Shown here piece by piece: positions 10,572 through 52,340 of a stretch of DNA of 64,000 bases; positions within the stretch are counted from its first letter, which is position 1; each line of letters begins with the position of its first letter. Made by a program: the position numbers and the translations under genes. The stretch covers positions 1,100,501 to 1,164,500 of the forward strand of contig JAUPFP010000033.1 in assembly GCA_036925085.1 (NCBI GenBank), in the 5' to 3' direction. Origin of the DNA: Brachycybe producta. Lineage: Eukaryota > Arthropoda > Diplopoda > Playtdesmida > Andrognathidae. The notes beneath the pieces are model-generated. The model was not told the DNA's origin and did not search any database. It worked only from the letters and a program-made list of their open reading frames with translations.

Positions 10572-13500
10572 CTAAATTTACATTTTAAAAATTAAACCAC
10601 CATTTTTAAATGTAAAAATAGCAATTTTAAATTTAATATACCTGTTGGTTTTGCTACTTTTGCGAGGTCTCCGTTCGCTGATGAGATCTGGGGGCTCTTG
10701 TTCTTGCCACTGCCCCATAGACGTTTCAAGTACTATAAGTCAAAAGGATGAAGTGTTTCGTCAACATCCGACTAACGAGTTACGAAATAGGTCGGTGCTG
10801 TTCGTAAAGACTCAAAACAGTAGTGAAGCAACTGTTTGGTTATTAGTCACTTCAAAATCCTCACGAAGGACCAGTCTTGTATTCAATTTACAACATAATT
10901 TTACGTTAAAAATCTTAACTAGTCTTCTGTAGTGCTTTAAAGAATAGCAAATCAGCTGCATTTACACTTATTCAATAAGACACCATGTACTTCTTGCCCT
11001 TGACCTTCTCTGTTAGCTGACTTGCTCATTGGCTAGTCAGTGGTCACCGCAAACTAGTAACTCAAAAATACGATATAGGGCTACTTCCAAAATTGGGGTC
11101 CCCAACCAGTCACATTCTTGGTCTTAAAGAGGGGTCACAAACTATGGTAGATATGATGATAGAATAAATCTAGTCACGTGTGACTATTTTGCAGTGACTA
11201 GTAGTCAAGTAGAATCAGGACTTCAAAATAGCCATGCATGCATGACTGTTTTATTCATCACATATGTGTACCATATCTTGTGACCACGATGTGACTAGTT
11301 GGTAATCTAAATTCTCGTAGTGGTCCTCTATTCTACATTTAAAGTCACCAATCTGCAGTGCCTAGCCAATGAGCGGTTACCTAACAGCAAAGGTCAAGGA
11401 CCCCAATGTCAATAAAGCGACCATAGTGCCTCATCATTGAAAATGTGCAATTGCTGATGATTGGCTAGTTTTTCCATGAAGTTTGTTACCAGCCGCCTGC
11501 CTCTCTACCTATCTGGTCTTTCAGGATTATTTTGCAGTGACTAAAAAAAAAGTCGAACCAGCCAGACCTTTAGACTCAAGTGAACAAGAAGATGTCAGAA
11601 TGACTACTACTCAGTTGAACTTTTTTAAAAAATGGAAGTTTGTAAAATCTTATTTTAGAAAAAGTTGTTACAGGGACAAGGGTCGTGTACTAAAGATTCG
11701 GGTTAAAATGACACCATATCGAAACAAAATAGGGGGGAATTAAAAAGTTTGCTTTAGGCTTCCTTTTTATGACGTTATGCCCATGAAAAATGAAGAGCTA
11801 AATTGAACCTCAACCAAAACCCTAAAAAGCACACGTAAAGCAATTTACGAGCAAGACCACAAACACAAGTTAAGGTGGCTCCAACAGGAATTTTTACATT
11901 CGTAAAAATGGACGTAAACTTTTTTTTTTTTCTTATAAAAAAATAAAACTAAAAACAAATTTAAAATTTGTTGGAAACTAGAATTATTTTCACTTATGAC
12001 AAAAAGAAAAAAAATCAATGTTCAATAAGAAGTAGTGTTTTATGAACTGATTTCAAAAATTCAGATAATTCTGCGCTTTTTGGAAGCAACGTATATTAAA
12101 AACGACGCTTAAATTAAAGTTTAACTTAAACCATAACGTAAGACAAAATTCTATGAGGTGTTTTTAAATTTAACTTTGTTTTAAGTTTCACTTTGGATTA
12201 AAAGGAACGTTTTACAATATGGCCAGAAGGAAAAATCCGAAAAGTGTTAGAAACTAGAACGGTAACCGAGAATCACATTAATAACATTTTCATATTGTTA
12301 TATTTCAAAATAAACTTTTTAGTTTTCATAAATAAAAATCGTAAAAAACATAACATAAAAAAACAAACCTGAAGTGTTTTGAGCTACCTTTCTAGTTTCT
12401 AAAACATTTTCAACGAGCAACATCTATTTACACCGCATGTGGACGTATTTTTTTAAACATCATTTGAGAAAGAAAAAAGGTTACGTCCAATATGTAATGT
12501 ATATTTTCATCTGTTGACAAATTTACTAAGCTTATCCGTACTTCAAAAATACTCAAACCATGTTAATTACTAATTTTGTTGTTAGCTTTTATAATTTCCA
12601 CACGAAAAGTCAGAAATGCCATAAACAAAACCTGTTGTTCTCCCAAATGCAAACATCACAGCACAAGAAAATAAAAAAGGAGACAACAAAAAAACAGCAA
12701 CGCGAGAAACCAAAAAGCTAAGCAACCGAGAAAGAGAAAAAGAAAGAAAACCGTTCCAACCATGCATTATTATATTTATGACCAAGTAACAAACAAACAC
12801 GAGGTAGCACAGATGACGAGGGAAAAATGAGGAGACGAAGGAGTTAAAAAAGATATTCGTAAACGGAAATAGAACGGACGGACGGACGAATGGATGGATT
12901 GGGGGGGAAAAGGGACGTAAAACATAACACATATTTTTCATCTCGGAAAAGTTGGAACGTAACAGCGATAGGGAAGCATTGCACTACCTGGCGAGGTTTG
13001 ATAGAGAGGGTATGGAAGACCATTACTTGTACCCACACTTTGCTGCTGTTGTTGATGAGAGGCCATTGGGGTACTGATCGAATTGGGCATCGATGCCGTG
13101 CCGTTCGAATTCACATAGAAGCTTGAACTGCGTTCTTTGGCCACCTCCTTCACGCAGCCCGGCAAACACGGACTGTGTCGTATCATCTTCCTGTACTCTT
13201 TTTGAACCTGTCATCGAAACAACAAAGACAAAAAGAAATTGTCGAAAAAACAAACATTAGAATTGTAAATCAAATGAACAGCAGAAACTTAATTCCTTTT
13301 GTACCTTTTCGTTCTGTACGCAGTGGAAGACGAATATGAAGAGTCCTTGAAGACTGTTCAAGACAGTGAACACGTACGCCATTATGACGGATTCCTCGTT
13401 CAAGTAGAGAAGTCCAAACGTCCACGTTAAACCGAGAAGAAAGACCAGGATGAGAGCACCTCGAATCCATGCTCTTCAAAAGGGATAAAAACCATTTTTA

Positions 13501-16500
13501 GGTTTATAAAAGCACAACTACTACATTTGAGAATTTTCGGTTGTTAAAAGTGATTAACGAAGCAGAAACGATCCCATTTTTAAATGAAACACTTTTTATC
13601 AAACACCCCCGCGATGGGCCAACCTTTACTTTAACCAAATTTTCGAAGTGTAAAAGCTTTTCAAACTCTTACTATTACGTCTTTCATAATCAAAATTAAA
13701 GCGAAACATCAAAGTGTTTTAGAAACTAGAAGGGTAATTCAATCACTTAAAGGCTATTTTCATGTTGTTCTTTCCTAAAATAAACTTTAAAAAATAAGCC
13801 ATCTTTAAAGCCCTCGGAGGATCTTTGTCAATTAAAAAGTTCATTTTGAAAGATATTAACATTGAAAATACTGTGTGGGATTCAACTACCCGTTCTAGTT
13901 TCTAACATACTTTCAATTTATTCTTTGTGTTGCTCTTCTGAAATACAGAATAACCAGACCTTGGCTTTACCAAAAAAATTGACTACACACTGGGATTAAA
14001 TTTAAGAAGAAAAACATGGCACTTTTGACCCTTCTTCTCAGCATGGTTCCAACATTAAATTTTTTTTGGAACCTTTAAAGTTAAGGGTTGTATTTTAATG
14101 ATTGATAAGTCAAAGGTGGTGCTAGACTCGTCAATTTCCGATGAAAGTTTCATGCAAGCACATTGGTACACGAACCACTTTTTAGTGGCCGCGTTTGATG
14201 GCAAAATGTAGTCGGCTTGTCGCTCGTGAACAAAAATTCGGCATATTTCCAAAGAAATACATCGACAACCACAGCTCAGCCAGCTCACCACTCAAAAGTG
14301 GTTCGTGTGCAAAGATACCTAAAAGTTGATAAGTTCAGCACCAACTATGACTCAAAAATCATTAAGAAACACGATCCTAAGTGCCGAAGTGTCCTCTATA
14401 GAATTACAAACACAGCTAAGAGACAAATGTCGAAGCAAAAAGCAAATTTACAAAGATACAAATTAATAGAGAAGTCATACAATTTATGAAGATTGGGGGT
14501 ACAGAAACCGTTCTCCATTTAAAAATGCGATCCATGCAAATTAAACTGTTAATAACAATTTGATCAAAGTCATTCTAAAGTCTAATAAGGTCTAAAAAGT
14601 ACAGAATTAGTCTTTTTTTTTTAGAGAAAAAAAAAGTCAAGATTCTTACAGATGTCGCCTCGTACGATCATGCAGTAATAATGTCTCAGCTTCATCCCTT
14701 CTAAAAACCCAATAATAACACAAAAGATTGTTGTTACAGCCATTTACCCAACATTATTGCGATTAATTAACAACCATGCTTCCGTATTATTTTCTTCATC
14801 ATGCATGCAAACTCATTCGCAGTGTTAAAGAGTCTCTTTTCTCTCGAACCGAACCGAGAAAAACGTTTCTTCGAGTTTACGATATCGTAGAAATTCTTAC
14901 CTGACATTGGACAGTTTTGTCTGTTCCTTCTTCTTCATCGACGCCGACACGTTAGCGTGCCGACACATCATGAAGATTGCTATGCTCAGAAACACGACAT
15001 TCGCCTGAAAACAAAAAATATATTTCGGTCACGATGGGGCTCCAGAGGAATCGAAAACAAAAAATAAAGGCTTTAATTGTACCACTATGACGGCAATGAC
15101 GGGACCAACGAAACTAAATATGAAGTAATTGTCAGTACGAAGCCAACAGTGTTTGTCGGTGCCGTAACTGAACGGATCGATGATGCAAGAGATGGCCACG
15201 ATCAGAGCCGATAGTCCGTAAGCAAACACGTAATACCATCGGATACGAGATTTTTCTGATTCGAAAACTTCGATGAGCATCACGTAAAGTTGAAATCCTT
15301 CGAGGAACATCCAAGCGAACGAACAGAGAAAGAAAAAGTGAAGAAATCCGGCTATGACACCGCAAAGGATCGGTTTGTCCGTTTGAGATATGCCAACGAG
15401 GAAGAGCACTTCGGCAATCAACAGGCAGATGCAAAGGTTCTTGTGAATCGTATTACGGTCACTGTTCAACCCTCTGAGTAATCGGTTAAACAAACACAGT
15501 GGAGGTTAGAGATTTCGGGACTTTTTTTGTTGATCAATGGGGGACAAACAGTTGCATCAATTAAACGTGACTTTTAAATAATTTTTGTAGATTAAATTTT
15601 TTAACTTTTAATATGGTTTTTATAGTGTAAACGCCCCTCAAACTCTGGTTATTCCATCTTTCAGGAGCAAAATCTAAGTAAAAGTTGAAAGTGTTTTGTC
15701 CTCCCGGATGGCGCCAGTGCAGTGCTACTATGTTCTATATTAGGTCTCTTCCCTCCACCCGCGTTTTTGAGAAAATTTATATTTTTCAAGCGAACGTTTT
15801 TCAGGAGGAACATTACAAACAAAATTCAAAGTGTTTTAGAAACTAGAATAGTTTGTGATAATGCAAAAAGTTTTTTCATTATGATATATTTTAAAATAAA
15901 CTTTTTAAGACAGTTTGAAAAAGGCGAAATTTTAGAAGCGCCAAAAAACAGGTCATTTTCAAACTGAACTATAAAATGTTTATTTTATAAGATATTGTTA
16001 AGAAAAAAACTTTTAGCATAATCTTTTACCATTCTAGTTTTGAAAACAATTTGAATTTTTTCATAATATTGTTTCTAAATTAAGTTCCCTTGACGTTTTT
16101 GTATCCAAATTTTATAAAAACGTCTATAGGAGTAACATTCTTGTTGATAACTATTGAAATAAACTTTTTATGTTAGTTTGAAAAATGACCCAAACTTTAA
16201 GCAGATGACATTTTTTTTTTTAAATTTTTGTCTTTAAAAAGTTTAATTTGAAAGATATTGACAAAGATATATTGACAGAAAAAAATACCATTAAGTGATT
16301 CAGCTTAAAATTCTAGTTTCTGATACACCTTCAACTTTACAAGTTACAATACAAGTTCAATAATTCGCAAAATCGTTTATATTTTAAATAAATTTAAAAT
16401 TAAATGTTGATTTAAAAAAAAAACTAATGTTTAAAAATGTATAAATAAAATATATTGATTTGAAAATCATCAATTTTTTATTGTATTTTTTACCTCAAAA

Positions 16501-19500
16501 ATCTTTGAGGTTTAAAAAGCTCTAATTTTAAAAATAGCTAAAAAAAATACATTAGTGTATTTAAAACTAGAAGAGTAACTAAAGGTAAACTGAAACTAAA
16601 GCTTCAATGACATCTTATTTGGTCCAACTTAAAGTGAAAACCAATACTGCGACATTGTCATAAAATTTACCTTTGAAGATAACATAGGAGAATCACTTCA
16701 AGTGACTTAACTTTTCTAGTTTTTTTTTATTTAAAAAAACTTCTAATTTCTTCTTAGTTACTTCTGAAACATAGAATACCCAGAGTTCTATCCATTCTTT
16801 TTCATTTGCATCTTTTTTGAACATAAATAAATATGAAAGTTTTTTTTTTGCGAACTTTAAAAATCACATTGTTGTCGGCAACTCTAATGGAAATAAAATG
16901 ATTAATTTCAACTTTGATTAATACTGACCCAAAACAAGAAAAGGTTAAGAATGCCAAACTCAAGCAAACGATCGAAATGATGCATCCGATATAGGTGATC
17001 AACTGAAGGGCAATCTCGTGCCCGTATGAAAGTTCGATTCCTTGAACATCCATAAGAACGGCAAAATTGGTTAAATGATTGCAAGCGCATATGGTATGAC
17101 TACGATTTGTCGACAGAACTTCACATCCGCTCGGTGACCACGTACTACAAAAACGAACAACATTGCCCACGAATTAAAACCTCCCATCGTATGATATCAT
17201 CAAACCAGTTTGTTTTTTTACCTCCTGGAGTAATCCCAGTAAACACAAGTCGGATTGGAGACGTTGTCTTCCCGATTGTGTTTTAGAATTACGAAAACCG
17301 GTTGCCTTAGTGGTTGATGATGTTTCCGTCCGAACGAAGCCGATACTACCTTCGAGTTGAGAACTTTCGTCGTTCGCGTTCCGTTATATGAAGAAGAAGA
17401 ATAACTGGAAGAGAACCTCGACGACGGTGGTTGTAACAATTCGTTCAAGTTGTCGTAAGTAAAAAAGATGACTTTAACGAGTCCGTTAACGGCTCGGTCC
17501 ATGAGTGCCTCCGCCGGCAACGAAATCACACCACCGGATACGTCCCAAACGGAATTAGAAATGTCTTCCGGCTCCGGAAAGGTCAAATCTCTGATGTTCT
17601 GAGTACGAATGACTTTGATCGACATTACTAGGTAGAAAAACAATTAGAACATTAGAATAACGAAACTGCAATAAACTTTAGTACTAGATCGAATCGACTT
17701 ACGTATGTTACTGCCGGACTGAATGGTCACCTTCTCGTAATTTACTTGGTCCGCCAAAAGGTAAGCATTCTCCTCTAATCCAAGAAGTAAGGCAGTTGCA
17801 GTTTTCATCTGCATCTGACGGCTCAGATCGTTCCACGAGTGGCGACTGTCGTTCGACAACAGATTGCTTCCGGTCTTAACGACAAACTACGGAGAACAGC
17901 AACGAAAACATTAAAACGGGACCACTTGACTTTTTTGTTAGATTGAAATAGAAAAGTAAAAGATATATTTTAAAAACAAATTTTTGTCGCAATTTTAATC
18001 AGAAATCCACATAAGGCACATGGGCTAGGTTCAATTTTTTTTTTGGGAGAAAAGAAACTAAAACCGCACCTTCATCAATTCCTTGACCAAATCCTCCTTG
18101 TGAGTACCAGTCGACATCTTGACACGTTCAGACATCTTATGTGCCATCTTCTTCAAAATGGCAGCCGCTTCGACGACGTCGCCACCGTACAGTTTCGAAC
18201 CGTTGGTCACTTGTACGAGATCGTCGGCAACACCGACTGGAGGATCACTCTTCTCCACCTGAGCGTTTCAAAAATCAACTTTTATTAACAAATAATCACT
18301 TTTCGACGTTCGGCAACTAAGATTATCGGAAGAAAACAATCACCCTGCTTGCAAGATCCATCATCCAAGCAGATTTGCAATCACTAAGATCAGGATTGTC
18401 GATCCATCGTGCCGGATTCACACTACACCTCCATTTTGCAAATCCTGAAACAAACGAAAACTTTAGAAAGGTTCTCGTGGTTTTGGCGGTTCCTAAAACT
18501 TACCCGTTGTGCCCGTCGGACAAGAAATCACAGCCATTTCACCCTGTTTTGTCCAGTTCCAATACAGATCACGAAGACGAATGGGAGAACAATAGTTTTC
18601 CCTATATTCCCATCTAATCGTTGTACTGGGAGTCGTTGGCACTGTGACTATTGGCGGTGGTGGTGTGGCAGTCATATGGTGACGAGAAGGTTCTGTCGCA
18701 TTAACAGGTGAAGCGACATCAGGCACACGGGACGGCACAGGCGATGGTTGCACCGTATGGTGGACCACGGTCGGCATCGAGACTGGACTAGTGATTGCAG
18801 GCTGACTGCTTGGAACCACGGTGGTTTCCGAGGCAGTCGTTGTGGTGCTTGAGGCTGATGGCGTAGTTCCTGCGACGACTACGCCACCTTCAGACGGTAA
18901 GTTCGGCCTCGTCACCAATGTCACCCATGCGGGTTGCGTCGTAGGCAACAGCCACGGTGGAGCAAACCTCGCCGGCGTTGAAGCTGGCGTTGTGGATGCT
19001 GCAATTTGAATCAAAGCGAAATTCAAGCAAAACACATTCCACCGAATTCATTCGATGCAGTTTTTTTTAGATATTGATTGCATCAAAAAGTTTCTCAATT
19101 TTTTTCTTCTTGAATTTTCATTTCCAGCATCACTTAAAATAAAATGAGCATAAAAAATTGAAAATATTTTGTTGCTATATACAAACAGGTAGTTCAACTA
19201 AGTGCTCTACCTACAGAGCATGAGTGTCGCTAATAGAAGGCACCAATTCTAGTTACAAAACAGTTAGAATCACAGTTACCGAGCACAAACCATCATTTAA
19301 ATACATCTTTTAGTGGTCGAGTTCGACTGCAAAATGTAGTCGGCGTGTTGCTTGTACAAAAAGGTCCAGTGTCGTTGTCAACAACCGTCAAACCACCTGC
19401 GACAACATTATGCATTCAAATTCGACCACTAAAAACGGGGTTTGTTTGCCAAGGGCACCAAAAATTGGTTTCACACAGAAAACTTTTGTGTTTGACGCAG

Positions 19501-22500
19501 CTTACCATGGTATAATGTTGATGATCACCACTGACAAACAGCCGGTGTTCGCTACTTAAACACGGCTAAAATACAAACACATTTTGTGTCGACACAAAGT
19601 GTTCCGTACGAAGCGGCATTTAAAAACGCAGCGACTAAGAAAGAACAGCTGATACTCAAATTTAGAGAGTGTCTATAGAAATAATTATAGCACCATAAAG
19701 ATAAGTTACACCAGCATGGATGTATCACAGTGGTATAGCCTCGTAAAAGGCTCTCTTTCATTCACAACATTTTTCTCTTAACATTTAGTTGAACTACCTG
19801 TATGTATATTAATCTTGATCAAAAATAGAAAATGAACCGTTTCTTCAGTCTGCATATATTTTTTTTTAAAAAAAAGCAAAGTGTAAATTAAAGTAAAAAA
19901 GTGTCACAGTCCAGTAAAAAAGAAGAAAACAAAGAGAAAAAAAGAAACCCTCCTCCAATTCCCCCCCAAAAAACCTCACAAACTTGGCTTTTTATTGTTT
20001 AAATTAGAGACTTAATTGTTAACACCTCAAACAAACACCTTTTCAGAAAAAGAAGAAAAAAAACCTCCACAGTTAAGAATTTAAATTTACTTTTTTTTTA
20101 TCTTTTTTACCATAATAAGATAAGAACAAAAAAAGTACAATGAAAAAGGAAAAGTTTCCACACACCTTGGAGATCCAAAAGAAAGAAATGTGCAAAAGAA
20201 AATGCAAAAAAAAAAGCAATTTTTTTTCGCTCAAATAGCTTTTTTTCTTTCTATAAAAATAAATTTTACAAGAAAAATTCTCCCTTTTTTTCTTAAAAAA
20301 AAAAGCAAAACACTTTTGGCAACTAAAATTTAAATAAAAGAAAGGGTTCATTTTCTATTCGAAATAAAACCAAAAAAAAAAAAAAGAATAAAATGAAACA
20401 AAAAAAAAAAAAAAAGAAACGAAAAGAAAAAGAGAGAAAAATTTGCACAAAAAGTGTTTTGCTAACTAAACTTTCACGAGATATAAAATCATAAAAAAAT
20501 AATACAGTAGAATCTCGTTTATTCGGACTTTATAGGTATTCCGGACTAGCTTTAGTTTTGACACCTTCCCCCCAATAGTGAAGAAGAACCCGTAATTAAG
20601 ACCTAAGGCCCGTAGACTTAACAGGTTAGCTGGTAACCCTCCCCCTAAGCCAACAGAATAAAGATGCACGGTGACGTTAGCAATATGGCGACTGATGGTG
20701 AGTGTACTACTTGCCTACGTCACCGTGCATCTTTAGTCCTTGAATCGTTTGGTTACCAGATAACTTATAAATCTACAGGCCCTTTGATCCGGAACCGGTC
20801 TCATGTAGTCGGAATAATCGAGATTCTACTGTAAATCTATAAAAAACAAAGCTGTTACCAAAAAAATTATATCCATGCATAATTAATAAAATATGATAAT
20901 AGGGAGGTTTGTCGGGTGGGTGGGTTGGTTTCATGCTTTGTTACGAACTTATAGAAAACATTCAAAATTCGACAGAAAATAAAAAAAAACCAAAGCAAGT
21001 AATAATTAATATTGTACGTGTTTGTTGTTGTTTTTGTTGTTGGCAGAACTGATCGAGAAACGTTTCGGACTTTTATTCGTAATCGGTGAAAATGTTAAGA
21101 TGGTTTACGAACAAGCTCATTTTCGAACTCTTTCTTCATGAATTTCTGTCTTTCGAGAGCAAAACTAATAGAAACCTGAAAGTGTTTTAAGAAACTAGAA
21201 GGGTAGGTAGCTTAATCACTTAAGGGGTATTATTTTCTCGTTTTCGATTATCTTTCAAATTAAGCAAAAATGTGATAAAAATATAAAATTTTTATATTAA
21301 AAAAAGCTTATTTTGAAAGATGAAACATGAAAATATTCTCTAGCGATTGGAGCTACCTTTCCAGTTTCTAAAAAAAACACTTTCAAGGTTTCTTTTCAAT
21401 TTTGAAACCGAACGAAACAAGAAATAATCAAAAGAGTTCGAAAAGGAGGATTCGCGTTTACACTCTTTTAAAAAAACCACCTTAAATCATCATCATCAAT
21501 CAACCTTTGATGTTTTGTTACCCGGTAATTTTAAAATTAGTTGTCTACCTGGCAAACACTGGTAGTGGGCTTCTAGATACTTGAGTGTGCCCACACAGGG
21601 ATCTCCAAATACTGAGGTAGCGGCTTGGATGGTACAGCTAGACTGTTGACTACATCTACAGAGAGTAAGTTAGCAAAACCACACAAAAAAAAAGAGTAAG
21701 AAAAATAGAGGAATTTTGGATTTATTTTTTTTAAATGTCACATCAATTACGACATCAAAAATTGTCAGTACGGTGTTTTTTTTATATTTGTTTAGAAGGT
21801 ACCGCGAGAGGGTACGAGAAGAGGGATTTCATTTTCGAAGAGAGAGACACACACACAAACACACTGAGAGAAAGAAAAAACAAGACACATTTTGTGGTTG
21901 TGCTCTTTTTTTTTTTGGTCACTTGGTCACTTCTTATGACACTCTTGGACACTCAATTGAGAGAACTAACCTAGATTATCACATCTGTATTGCACTTCAA
22001 GATATTTATAAGTCCCTGGACAGGGATCTCCAAAAATTGTACTGGCGATGTTCAATGAACAGCTGGACACCTGATCACATCTGGAAACATTTGATTGAAG
22101 AAGACAAAAATTGCTTTTTTTATATACTGTATATATATAAAGTACAACTACTGATTTTAGACTCCATTTTTTTATCTACGTAGGTTGTGATCAACTTGGT
22201 TATCCTCACATTCGTTAAAACGAAAAATGTTATTTGTGCAAAGCTGTATAAGCCAAGTACACACTTGAATAAAAAAAAGTCACGCGACAATGTATCACAA
22301 CTATCAAGGTACACAGTTGCAAGACTTTGTATCTATACAAGATCGAGCATCTACAACTATTTTATAAAATCAGTGTGAGACATCCTATAGACACGAACGA
22401 CACTGCCTGCAAAGCCTCTTATCAGATTGAGGGTTTTCTCATCAGTGGTCCCCACATGTATTCACTCCTTGAGGACTAGAAACTGACAAGTTCCTTGTCT

Positions 22501-25500: not shown

Positions 25501-28500
25501 TTTTTTCCCTCCATCTAAAAAGAAAAGTGACGACATGCAAACACTTTATGAAATTAATGTACACTCGATGATCTGTGGAAGATAAACGACTGGATTAGTA
25601 GAAAGTAATCATCATTTACGATTACTGTTGAGTGAACATTTTTAATCCTAGAGACAAGAAAGAGAGAGAGAGAAAAAACGACGACGACATCAAAAGTAAC
25701 CAAGTGGCTCATAAAAATAAAACCCAAGTAAATATATACAGGGCGATCACAAAGCCACTCTCTCTGAAGCATTACGAAACACCCGAAAACACTTACTAAG
25801 AAACCACAAAACAAGTGCGTTCGGACCGATCCACATCAAGCTGAAAAAAGAAAAAAAAAAAAAAAAAAACACAAACAAAACAACAAACTCAGTGTGTTTC
25901 GCGACAAATTGGCGACAATTTTACAAACATTTCTGCGACTTTTGTGTGTTGTCTGCAATTTCACAAACAATTCCAATGTATTGCCTCAGTAATACGCAAC
26001 ATTTTGTCCGTGCAGTTGTGGACAGTTTAGTATTAAAACAACAACAGAACAGTTGCGTAGTTTACGTATGACCTCTCTATAGAAACACAAAACAAAACCC
26101 AAATTTGTTTGTGTTGTGTCACAAATATGTTGCGGTTTTGTCTTGAGTATTGCTGACAGTTGTTTCAGTTTTGTTTTGTTTTCAAACTCTTGCTTTTTCT
26201 GGCGTATTTTGTTCTGTGTTTTTGTCTCGAACTCATGTTGCACTTTTGTCAGTTTGATGTGGACCCGGGACTTAAGAGCGATGCTCTCCGCTTTAAAAGT
26301 AACTAGTTACTTCAAACGCACTCATAACACTCAAAACGAATTATGGTTGTCTTTCCATCAACAAGACTGTTTAGAGAGGCTAGAATTCTTACAACGTGAT
26401 AGTGTTTTTTTTTTTAAATCTAGCCTCTCTAAACAGTCTCACTGCTTGTAGGTGACGCTTTCGGCAATGACCGATGTCGCGAAATGCTAAAAAGAAAAAA
26501 ACGCTGTAACCACCCTGTACAGTAAAAAAAAAACATTAAATATCAAACAAATTATTGTAATTATAATTAATTCTAAAGAAAATCGTTTAGGAACTTTGGA
26601 AAAAAAAAAAATTACGAAACTGACTCTAGACAGTTGCGAAAAAAAAAAACAGCCATTGAATGTACTTTAGATCCTATTGATGTGTTAAATAAAATATAAT
26701 CAAAAGCGGACCTCACACATTAAATCAAAACTCATATTTGACATCAATTTCACTTGTTGCTGTAAAAAAAATATGATTAAATTCCGTTTTCGGCTGCAAA
26801 AAAAAGATAGCTTCAATAGATAGATACATTTTCTTACTTAATCAGACCCACACAAAGCTAAAGAAAAATTGCGTCATTTTTGAGAGGGTGCATTTGAGAA
26901 CATACGACCAGTGAGTGAGTGATACAATCTACTTCCGTAATGAATTTCTTTGAAAATGTCGACTATTTCATTTGAAAACGCCTTCAAGTCACTCTTCTGA
27001 TCTAGTAAAAAGATCGAAACAAGTAAAACGATTGATACGAATCGCAGACGATTGCCAGAAATGAACTTGATTAAGATGCATCCTGGGTAATGGGTATCAA
27101 AATTATTATTCATAAACGGCTTGCAATGCATTCTATAGGCTTAAGAGGGCTTGCTCCATAGAAAAATATTTGTGTAAATCCAAGGTAGATGGCGCCTGCA
27201 ACCTCCATAGGTGGCAAACTACACTCGCGGCCAATTAGTTGAAATCGAATGCAACCTTTTAGCTCTAAAAGCCACGTCCAAGACAAACTTAATTATCAGA
27301 GCACGTGACAAACTTACCCCCAGAACATAATATAAGCGCAGAAGAAAGCACGTGTAGAAATAGTGATGACACAATTAAAAGTTTACCACGTGACAAAAAA
27401 AAGAAAAGGTGAGTCAAGAGTTGAAGAAGTGTCAGTACATTTCTATGGGAGGAGGGCTAGTGGCGTCATCTAACGCTATACAGGGACAAAATTAAAGACC
27501 TACTTGCATTTTTAAGGAGAGCGGGCAGATAAAATCATGATTTTAATTAATTTAAAATTGATTTAAATCGAATCCTCCTATGAACGTGATATGTAGGCGT
27601 GTTCTCAAATGCACCCCTTCTTCATTATATAAATTACAAACCATAAACAATTGAAGTGGATTTTTTTAAAAAAAAATACGATTAGCGTAAATGTTACCTT
27701 TCTTGTAGGACTCTAAAGGACCTTGGAGCAATACAGTTGACACTCCAATCTGTGTTGCCGTGTTCATTGCAAATGGTGATACTAAATCGGCCATAGTTGG
27801 CTCTGATCAGGTGAATCAACTGACCATCATCACAGCTAATGAATAAGGGACTTCCTTCACAGGCATAAGCAGTACGATAGTGAGGCCTCTCTGAGAAAAC
27901 AAAAATACACAAATTAATTTTTATTAAAAACTAGAAACAAACAAGTTCCAAGAAAATTTACTACTCAAAAATATAAAAAACTTCAACCCTCTCTGAATAA
28001 AAAGAACCTAATGTTGTCCACATTGTGGAAACCATTATATGAACAGCTAATTAGCTAACAAAGTTCATAAACGGGAAATTCATTCAAAGTTTAGATGTCA
28101 TTTCCGGCATACAGGCTGACTGGTTGTTTGTCAGAAAGTTTCATAAAAAAAAGTCTCTTAAGAATTTGAACACGTGCAACTCAATGAGAGACTTGAGTCT
28201 CAGCATTAGTTTGAAAAGAAAGTTTTACCAGGTTGCATGTTATATCCGCACTATAAACAAAGAAGTTGCATGTCGCATGTTACAAGTTTTATTGCATCAA
28301 AAGTTGCTCGTGTGATAGTGGGGGAGGGGGGCTTAATTCATAACGAAAAATGCTTGAAAAACTCTTCTTGAGTTGTTGTGTCCAAGACACATAAGTCCGA
28401 GACAGTCAAGTCCGAAAACCCCCTTGAATTGAAGTGACATTTCAGTATATTTGATCACGTTCTTATAATAATATATCCTTTCATCATAAAAAAATCGTTG

Positions 28501-51800: not shown

Positions 51801-52340
51801 CGCGTCGTTTGTTCCTTTTTTTTACTCCTTTCATTGCAATTTCAGTTTCTCCTTCCCCCTCCACGTTTCTCCCCCCCCCCTTCTACACTTTCCAACCTTG
51901 TGTGCAACATATAGTTGACCTTGAGAAGAAAAAAAAGCGGTTCATTCATTTAAATTTATATAAATTCCGATGTTATACACACACACAGACCTGGCGTAAT
52001 ATAAATATAATTTTTATGAACAGTTGATTTTCGAACTTTCGGGGCAATTGTGCCCAGCATTAGAATTTCTTTTCCTCCGCCCTTTTATGAACGTCATCAA
52101 TTTCTAATTGAGTTTGTTACTTGGTCTGACGTCATAAAAGGGCGGAGGAAAAGAAATTCTAATGCTGGGCACAATTGCCTGTGAATTTTGCTCCCGTCAT
52201 TTCGAAATATTAAAAGAAAACCAAAAAAAAAAAAGTACTCACCGAGAACGGCAACAGATGGCTGTGGTATTAGTAGAACAATGAAGAAGACTAATCCAAT
52301 AATAAACATAAAATTCCTGCTTCTCCTCCTTCTAGTCTTT

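Follow-up and report, generated by a model that had tools for sequence, protein, structure and literature searches.

Tandemly duplicated, probably mutually exclusive exons for the second half of the RBL lectin domain in the latrophilin gene of Brachycybe producta

Latrophilins (ADGRL/Cirl) belong to the adhesion GPCRs, and outside vertebrates few of their ligands are settled. In vertebrates, splicing also alters the adhesive part of this receptor family, i.e. at SSA and in exons 9, 14, 23 and 28 of Adgrl2 (PMC6629964, PMC13108381). According to the available sections of these papers, SSA/exon 9 inserts 4-5 residues between the lectin and olfactomedin domains, and the SSA insert lowers the affinity of Lphn1 for teneurin; the other Adgrl2 exons are cassettes in the GAIN domain, an intracellular loop and the C-terminal region, and no exchange of half a lectin domain is described in those sections. 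Drosophila Cirl resembles the gene described here in having RBL, HormR and GAIN domains without an olfactomedin domain (PMC13197933, in the part available); by contrast, the splicing reported for it swaps the 7TM region for one helix, and no RBL exon pair is mentioned in the available part of PMC11043342.

Among arthropod genes, mutually exclusive exons are found in CadN, MHC, MRP and srp, where adjacent homologous exons are likewise used one per transcript (PMC9013439, available part). Judging from abstracts, Dscam1 has the same type of exon choice. In the accessible text of a paper on spiders, mutually exclusive exons are named for venom genes only (PMC6700725). We found no description of an RBL exon pair in the accessible text of the open-access literature; such a pair may well be annotated elsewhere already and yet be undiscussed. 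Here, we describe a latrophilin gene of the millipede Brachycybe producta that, judged from its sequence, very likely carries a tandem-duplicated, mutually exclusive exon pair within its RBL (SUEL lectin) domain.

The latrophilin gene and its reading frame

The gene lies on the minus strand of the window, i.e. the whole stretch of 64,000 nt that was analysed, which belongs to contig JAUPFP010000033.1 (C33) of B. producta; the genome searched comprises 295 Mb in 442 contigs. The order of the encoded domains is RBL/SUEL lectin, HormR, GAIN, GPS and 7TM. The partial model consists of exons 1-10, and the exon for TM6-TM7 was matched separately. The features are as follows, in the order of transcription:

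52243..52309, minus strand: exon 1, part of the signal peptide, predicted from its translation and a GT donor, phase 1 into exon 2
27698..27890, minus strand: exon 2 (193 nt), which encodes the first half of the RBL domain and is modelled as constitutive, phase 1 in and 2 out
21971..22080, minus strand: exon 3B (110 nt), the upstream of the two alternatives for the second RBL half, phase 2 in and 1 out, lectin profile 40.3 bits
21656..21970, minus strand: intron separating 3B from 3A, 315 nt, fold z -0.78
21549..21655, minus strand: exon 3A (107 nt), the downstream of the two alternatives for the second RBL half, phase 2 in and 1 out, lectin profile 31.9 bits
18504..18998, minus strand: exon 4 (495 nt), with the Ser/Thr/Pro-rich linker and the beginning of HormR
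18344..18444, minus strand: exon 5, end of HormR, from the joined model
18070..18258, minus strand: exon 6, GAIN, from the joined model
17703..17886, minus strand: exon 7, GAIN, from the joined model
17222..17627, minus strand: exon 8, GAIN, from the joined model
16929..17144, minus strand: exon 9, GPS and TM1, from the joined model
15083..15473, minus strand: exon 10, 7tm_2 from TM2 on, 3' boundary uncertain
13305..13473, minus strand: TM6-TM7 exon, open reading frame with a 7tm_2 match, boundaries set by eye

For exon 1, we chose as start the Met that precedes the hydrophobic stretch; the open frame extends further upstream. In the model containing 3A, the GAIN, GPS and 7tm_2 profiles scored 133, 60.4 and 164.6 bits, respectively, all above their cut-offs, and the HRM (HormR) profile scored 23.3 bits in the joined model, slightly below its cut-off of 26.2. 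In a profile search, no match to an olfactomedin domain was detected in the partial model. For the lectin itself (SUEL_Lectin, PF02140, cut-off 31.4), exon 2 alone matched profile positions 1-46 with 24.3 bits, i.e. under the cut-off; joined to exon 3B it scored 79.6 bits and joined to exon 3A 74.0 bits, with the match spanning profile positions 1-80.

The introns around the exon pair also contain two repeat structures: a MITE-like element in intron 4 (window positions 20503-20833), with 27-nt terminal inverted repeats that are 93 percent complementary and an inner hairpin, and a near-perfect 24-nt hairpin in intron 2 (26364-26439), the arms of which are 96 percent complementary and flank a 28-nt loop.

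An earlier note on this DNA had described exons 3A and 3B, of 107 and 110 nt, as sharing identical phases (2 in, 1 out) and an intact FGDPC-x-GT-x-KYLE-x-x-Y-x-C motif. Both exons were located at the places given there, on the minus strand; joining of the exons bore out the phases, and the motif is intact in both. The letters used in that note oppose the order in the transcript because 3B precedes 3A in transcription. Both exons are flanked by AG and GT, the edges being CAG/ATGTGATC...CTAG/GTTAGT for 3B and TAG/ATGTAG...CCAG/GTAGAC for 3A. Both donors depart from the consensus, as GTTAGT of 3B has no purine at +3 and GTAGAC of 3A has no G at +5, and thus either exon might be little used. Regulated exons often have off-consensus donors.

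Exon 2 stops in phase 2; the first base of either exon 3 completes an Arg codon, one base is left over at the end of that exon, and exon 4 adds two. Joined models containing only 3B or only 3A are open for 784 and 783 codons, respectively, to the end of the partial model. By contrast, the model containing 3B followed by 3A reaches a stop within 3A after 150 codons, and the model skipping both exons reaches a stop after 122 codons. Since only the versions with a single exon 3 are open, the reading frame itself permits exactly one exon 3. The proposal in the earlier note that double inclusion shifts the frame into a stop, and that productive mRNAs must choose one exon, therefore agrees with the predicted frame, which double skipping breaks as well. 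A premature stop well upstream of later exon junctions leads to nonsense-mediated decay. With both exons or with neither, several exon junctions of the model follow the stop by more than 380 nt, and hence decay of such transcripts would be expected.

Competing RNA pairing within introns is a feature of some, though not all, mutually exclusive exon pairs; for this pair, the predictions gave no support for an RNA structure that would enforce the choice. In the 315-nt intron between 3B and 3A, 20 of 100 shuffled sequences folded as stably as the native one, and pairing among introns 2, 3 and 4 was equally strong in 49, 43 and 50 of 60 composition shuffles. Moreover, the length of this intron seems to exceed what simple steric exclusion would allow. 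In total, the filter imposed by the frame is the sole candidate exclusion device that has support in the sequence. We propose that splicing would choose between the two exons according to cell type or stage, that nonsense-mediated decay would remove transcripts with both exons or with neither, and that the first half of the lectin, the linker and the receptor body would stay constant with the second half of the lectin being exchanged.

Authenticity and origin of the two exons

In tblastn searches of the whole window with either exon as query, the other exon was recovered at about 1e-12, the next best hit had a value of 0.18 or worse among the matches listed, and no third copy rose above noise among these matches. 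Against solved latrophilin RBL domains, 3B alone matched LPHN2 at 4.4e-9 and 3A alone matched LPHN3 at 5e-8. The alignment of the two exons had a z of 9.5 relative to shuffles, none of 300 being as good. The 19 identities counted in the earlier note were recovered; its denominator of 35 aligned columns was not, as the recount, from the first to the last Cys, covers 33 residues. An assembly artefact, whether through a collapsed allele, a wrongly joined haplotype or sequence brought in from a different gene, is extremely improbable: nothing was found in its favour, the 601-base stretch carrying both exons matches the genome only once, 36 of the 99 coding bases are different between the exons, and the lectin profile shows no other locus with either exon.

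Alternatively, only one of the two might serve as exon 3, the other being a silent or decaying duplicate that splicing seldom or never includes. The departure of the 3A donor at +5 would fit this possibility, as would the Leu in 3A at a position where all nine solved repeats compared have Tyr. However, neither copy has a stop, a frame shift or a lost cysteine, and the splice sites and phases of both fit. Of the 12 positions invariant across nine solved RBL repeats, 3B keeps all 12 and 3A keeps 11. Moreover, of the 33 bases at each codon position, 11 first, 8 second and 17 third bases differ between 3A and 3B, with a one-sided Fisher p of 0.024 for positions 1 and 2 versus 3, and the NG86 estimates are 0.34 for dN and 1.90 for dS, the latter being near saturation and the comparison covering 33 codons only. 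In simulations with a uniform mutation rate and no insertions, letting both copies drift neutrally until they differed by as many nucleotides as the native pair gave at least 19 identities in 16 of 40000 runs. When one copy was held constant in protein and the other drifted neutrally, at least 19 identities without a stop were seen in 42 of 10000 runs with 3A constant and in 36 of 10000 with 3B constant; a common pattern of 15 residues, which was picked after the data had been seen, appeared in 0 of 10000 runs of each kind. Finally, the intron flanks of the two exons are dissimilar (z relative to shuffles of -1.0 for the 100 nt upstream and -2.3 for the 100 nt downstream), so that likeness ends at the exon edges, which indicates that the duplication is not recent. 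Together, this argues for an old duplication that has been kept by selection on both copies, and we consider a silent duplicate unlikely.

The second exon could alternatively act mainly as a switch of expression level, with inclusion of both exons or of neither leading to decay and the difference in protein being incidental. Both of these versions do yield premature stops well 5' of later junctions; however, a pure poison exon would have no need to preserve an entire lectin half together with the cysteines and residues of contact, and we regard this possibility as very unlikely. We conclude that the 3A/3B pair is real and probably functional.

How old the pair might be is suggested by comparison with other RBL domains. 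All nine distinct sequences of solved latrophilin chains match both forms, and each scores higher with 3B than with 3A, also when the exons are used alone; these nine chains are not independent, Lphn1 being present twice and Lphn3 five times. Three chains of fish and shellfish lectins are split, one favouring 3B and two favouring 3A. A provisional sequence of the Drosophila Cirl exon, used as a lead only, agrees with 3A at 23 of 33 residues, through KYLEAHYQC, and with 3B at 18. A neighbouring stretch of this provisional sequence differs by one residue from a primer listed in the available part of PMC5548486. If the provisional sequence is right, 3A is of the insect type and 3B of the ancestral type, and the duplication would predate the split from flies. 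On this tentative reading, which we think possible but would not favour, the pair is an ancient arthropod feature, with 3B the ancestral, vertebrate-like form and 3A the insect form, and flies and others have kept one of two lectin faces. Were it true, published work on Cirl ligands would cover only one of two receptor types. Searches for relatives in collections of prokaryotic and viral sequences returned one match and none, respectively; the single match is a stretch of a bacterial gene that matches by chance.

The exchanged lectin half and possible ligands

Positions of mouse Lat-1 were moved onto the window through alignments, in which cysteines 96, 102, 115 and 128 match the four Cys of each exon. 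In mouse Lat-1, Glu42, Tyr63, Gly117 and Lys120 are residues of the rhamnose/galactose-type RBL pocket, and Tyr119 together with Gln77 borders the methyl group of the sugar (PMC2430599, available part). Of these, the rhamnose contacts Glu42 and Tyr63 are encoded by exon 2 and unchanged in the window, and Gly117 and Lys120 are encoded by exon 3 and present in 3A as well as in 3B. The residue corresponding to Tyr119 is Tyr in 3B and Leu in 3A; Tyr is found there in all nine solved repeats compared and also in a tenth. At residue 116, 3B has Pro where 3A has Val, and Gln77, in exon 2, is replaced by Thr in the window. Other differences between 3A and 3B fall in the segment between Cys96 and loop 2 and in the last strand. 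As read from these alignments, the swap alters the sugar-binding loop at its rim, the segment that precedes this loop, and the last strand. Mouse Lat-1 binds rhamnose only weakly (1.8 mM), and it has been argued in the same paper that RBL domains attached to receptors may bind proteins and not sugars (PMC2430599, available part). We therefore treat the sugar reading as a lead and not as a result.

The earlier note had suggested that the choice of exon provides two lectin surfaces related to teneurin. In vertebrate latrophilins, teneurin is bound mainly through RBL (PMC7195488, PMC6978801), and invertebrate latrophilins likely form teneurin complexes according to one review (PMC6629964), as far as the accessible text of these sources goes; by contrast, a second review, likewise accessible in part, doubts binding between invertebrate latrophilins and teneurin (PMC6422961). 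The teneurin contacts named in the available sections are S38, R44, D49, D67 and the disulphide C36-C66 for LPHN3 (PMC7195488) and D55, D68 and D73 for Lphn2 (PMC6978801), the latter three corresponding by our count to D49, D62 and D67 of LPHN3. The boundary between exons 2 and 3 falls, also by count, at residue 91 of LPHN3, and the named contacts all precede it. Moreover, by alignment and counting of positions, R44, D49, D62 and D67 of LPHN3 read S, Q, S and N in the window; position 38 says little because it is Gly, the same as in mouse Lphn1. Thus, the swapped half is without named contacts and the constant half is without the charged ones, and the teneurin part of the earlier note is not supported. 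There could be further, unnamed teneurin contacts in the swapped half, given the partial view that the two structural papers offer here, and a choice between teneurin-binding states would be compatible with the exon pair itself; nevertheless, we judge such a choice improbable, and on the sequence teneurin would not be the first ligand to bet on for this receptor.

Other partners have been reported for invertebrate latrophilins. Toll-8 is a reported partner of Drosophila Cirl, and in C. elegans the GAIN and RBL domains of LAT-1 mediate its binding by LAG-2 (both PMC13197933, available part). We propose that the exon swap would tune which glycan or glycoprotein the receptor meets, in arthropods perhaps Toll-8, and would not tune teneurin contacts. 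The pair would then be a natural experiment, with two receptors identical but for the second half of the lectin, one of them altered beside the methyl group of the sugar. It predicts ligands specific to cell types, gives a direct test of the importance of the sugar pocket, and may explain how one arthropod latrophilin gene serves several partners.

Related genes and comparison with known systems

When the 784-residue model was compared with the genome, there were 20 matches among the best candidates, 10 of them to the gene itself and 10 elsewhere at 28-49 percent identity. Of these best candidates elsewhere, nine matched the GPS-7TM part, one the part comprising linker and HormR, and none the RBL part. 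By profile and protein search, no second RBL-bearing latrophilin was found in the genome among the best candidates scored.

Several observations concern other parts of the assembly. The mitochondrial contig (C442, 15359 bases) has nad5-nad4-nad4L on the strand of cox1 and a moved nad2, with genes named by eye; ARAGORN detected no trnL2 between cox1 and cox2, and the gene order differs from that of Strigamia maritima as given in the available part of PMC4368715. Copies of COX1 in two larger contigs, at C1:12697416-12698753 and C17:4027703-4029047, one of which is almost full length with one internal TAA, are probable nuclear insertions of mitochondrial DNA. The insect odorant-receptor profile gave weak matches in the genome (8, the best with 32.3 bits at a cut-off of 25.8).

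Among the best candidates, a further PF02140 locus (contig C14:1658273-1663858), which we labelled EVA-1-like, resembles the latrophilin gene in that the halves of its RBL sequence lie on separate exons and two second halves are present. By contrast, its halves follow each other in series as first-second-first-second, an arrangement that was read from open frames with three of the four halves detected by the profile, and they thus form two domains and not alternatives. EVA-1 is a two-RBL protein (PMC2430599, available part).

Compared with CadN, Mhc, MRP, srp and Dscam1, the latrophilin pair has only two copies and lies in the lectin domain of an adhesion GPCR. Moreover, its predicted exclusivity follows from the reading frame, with no intronic pairing device found in introns 2, 3 and 4. 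As a splicing device, the pair would be of a common arthropod type.
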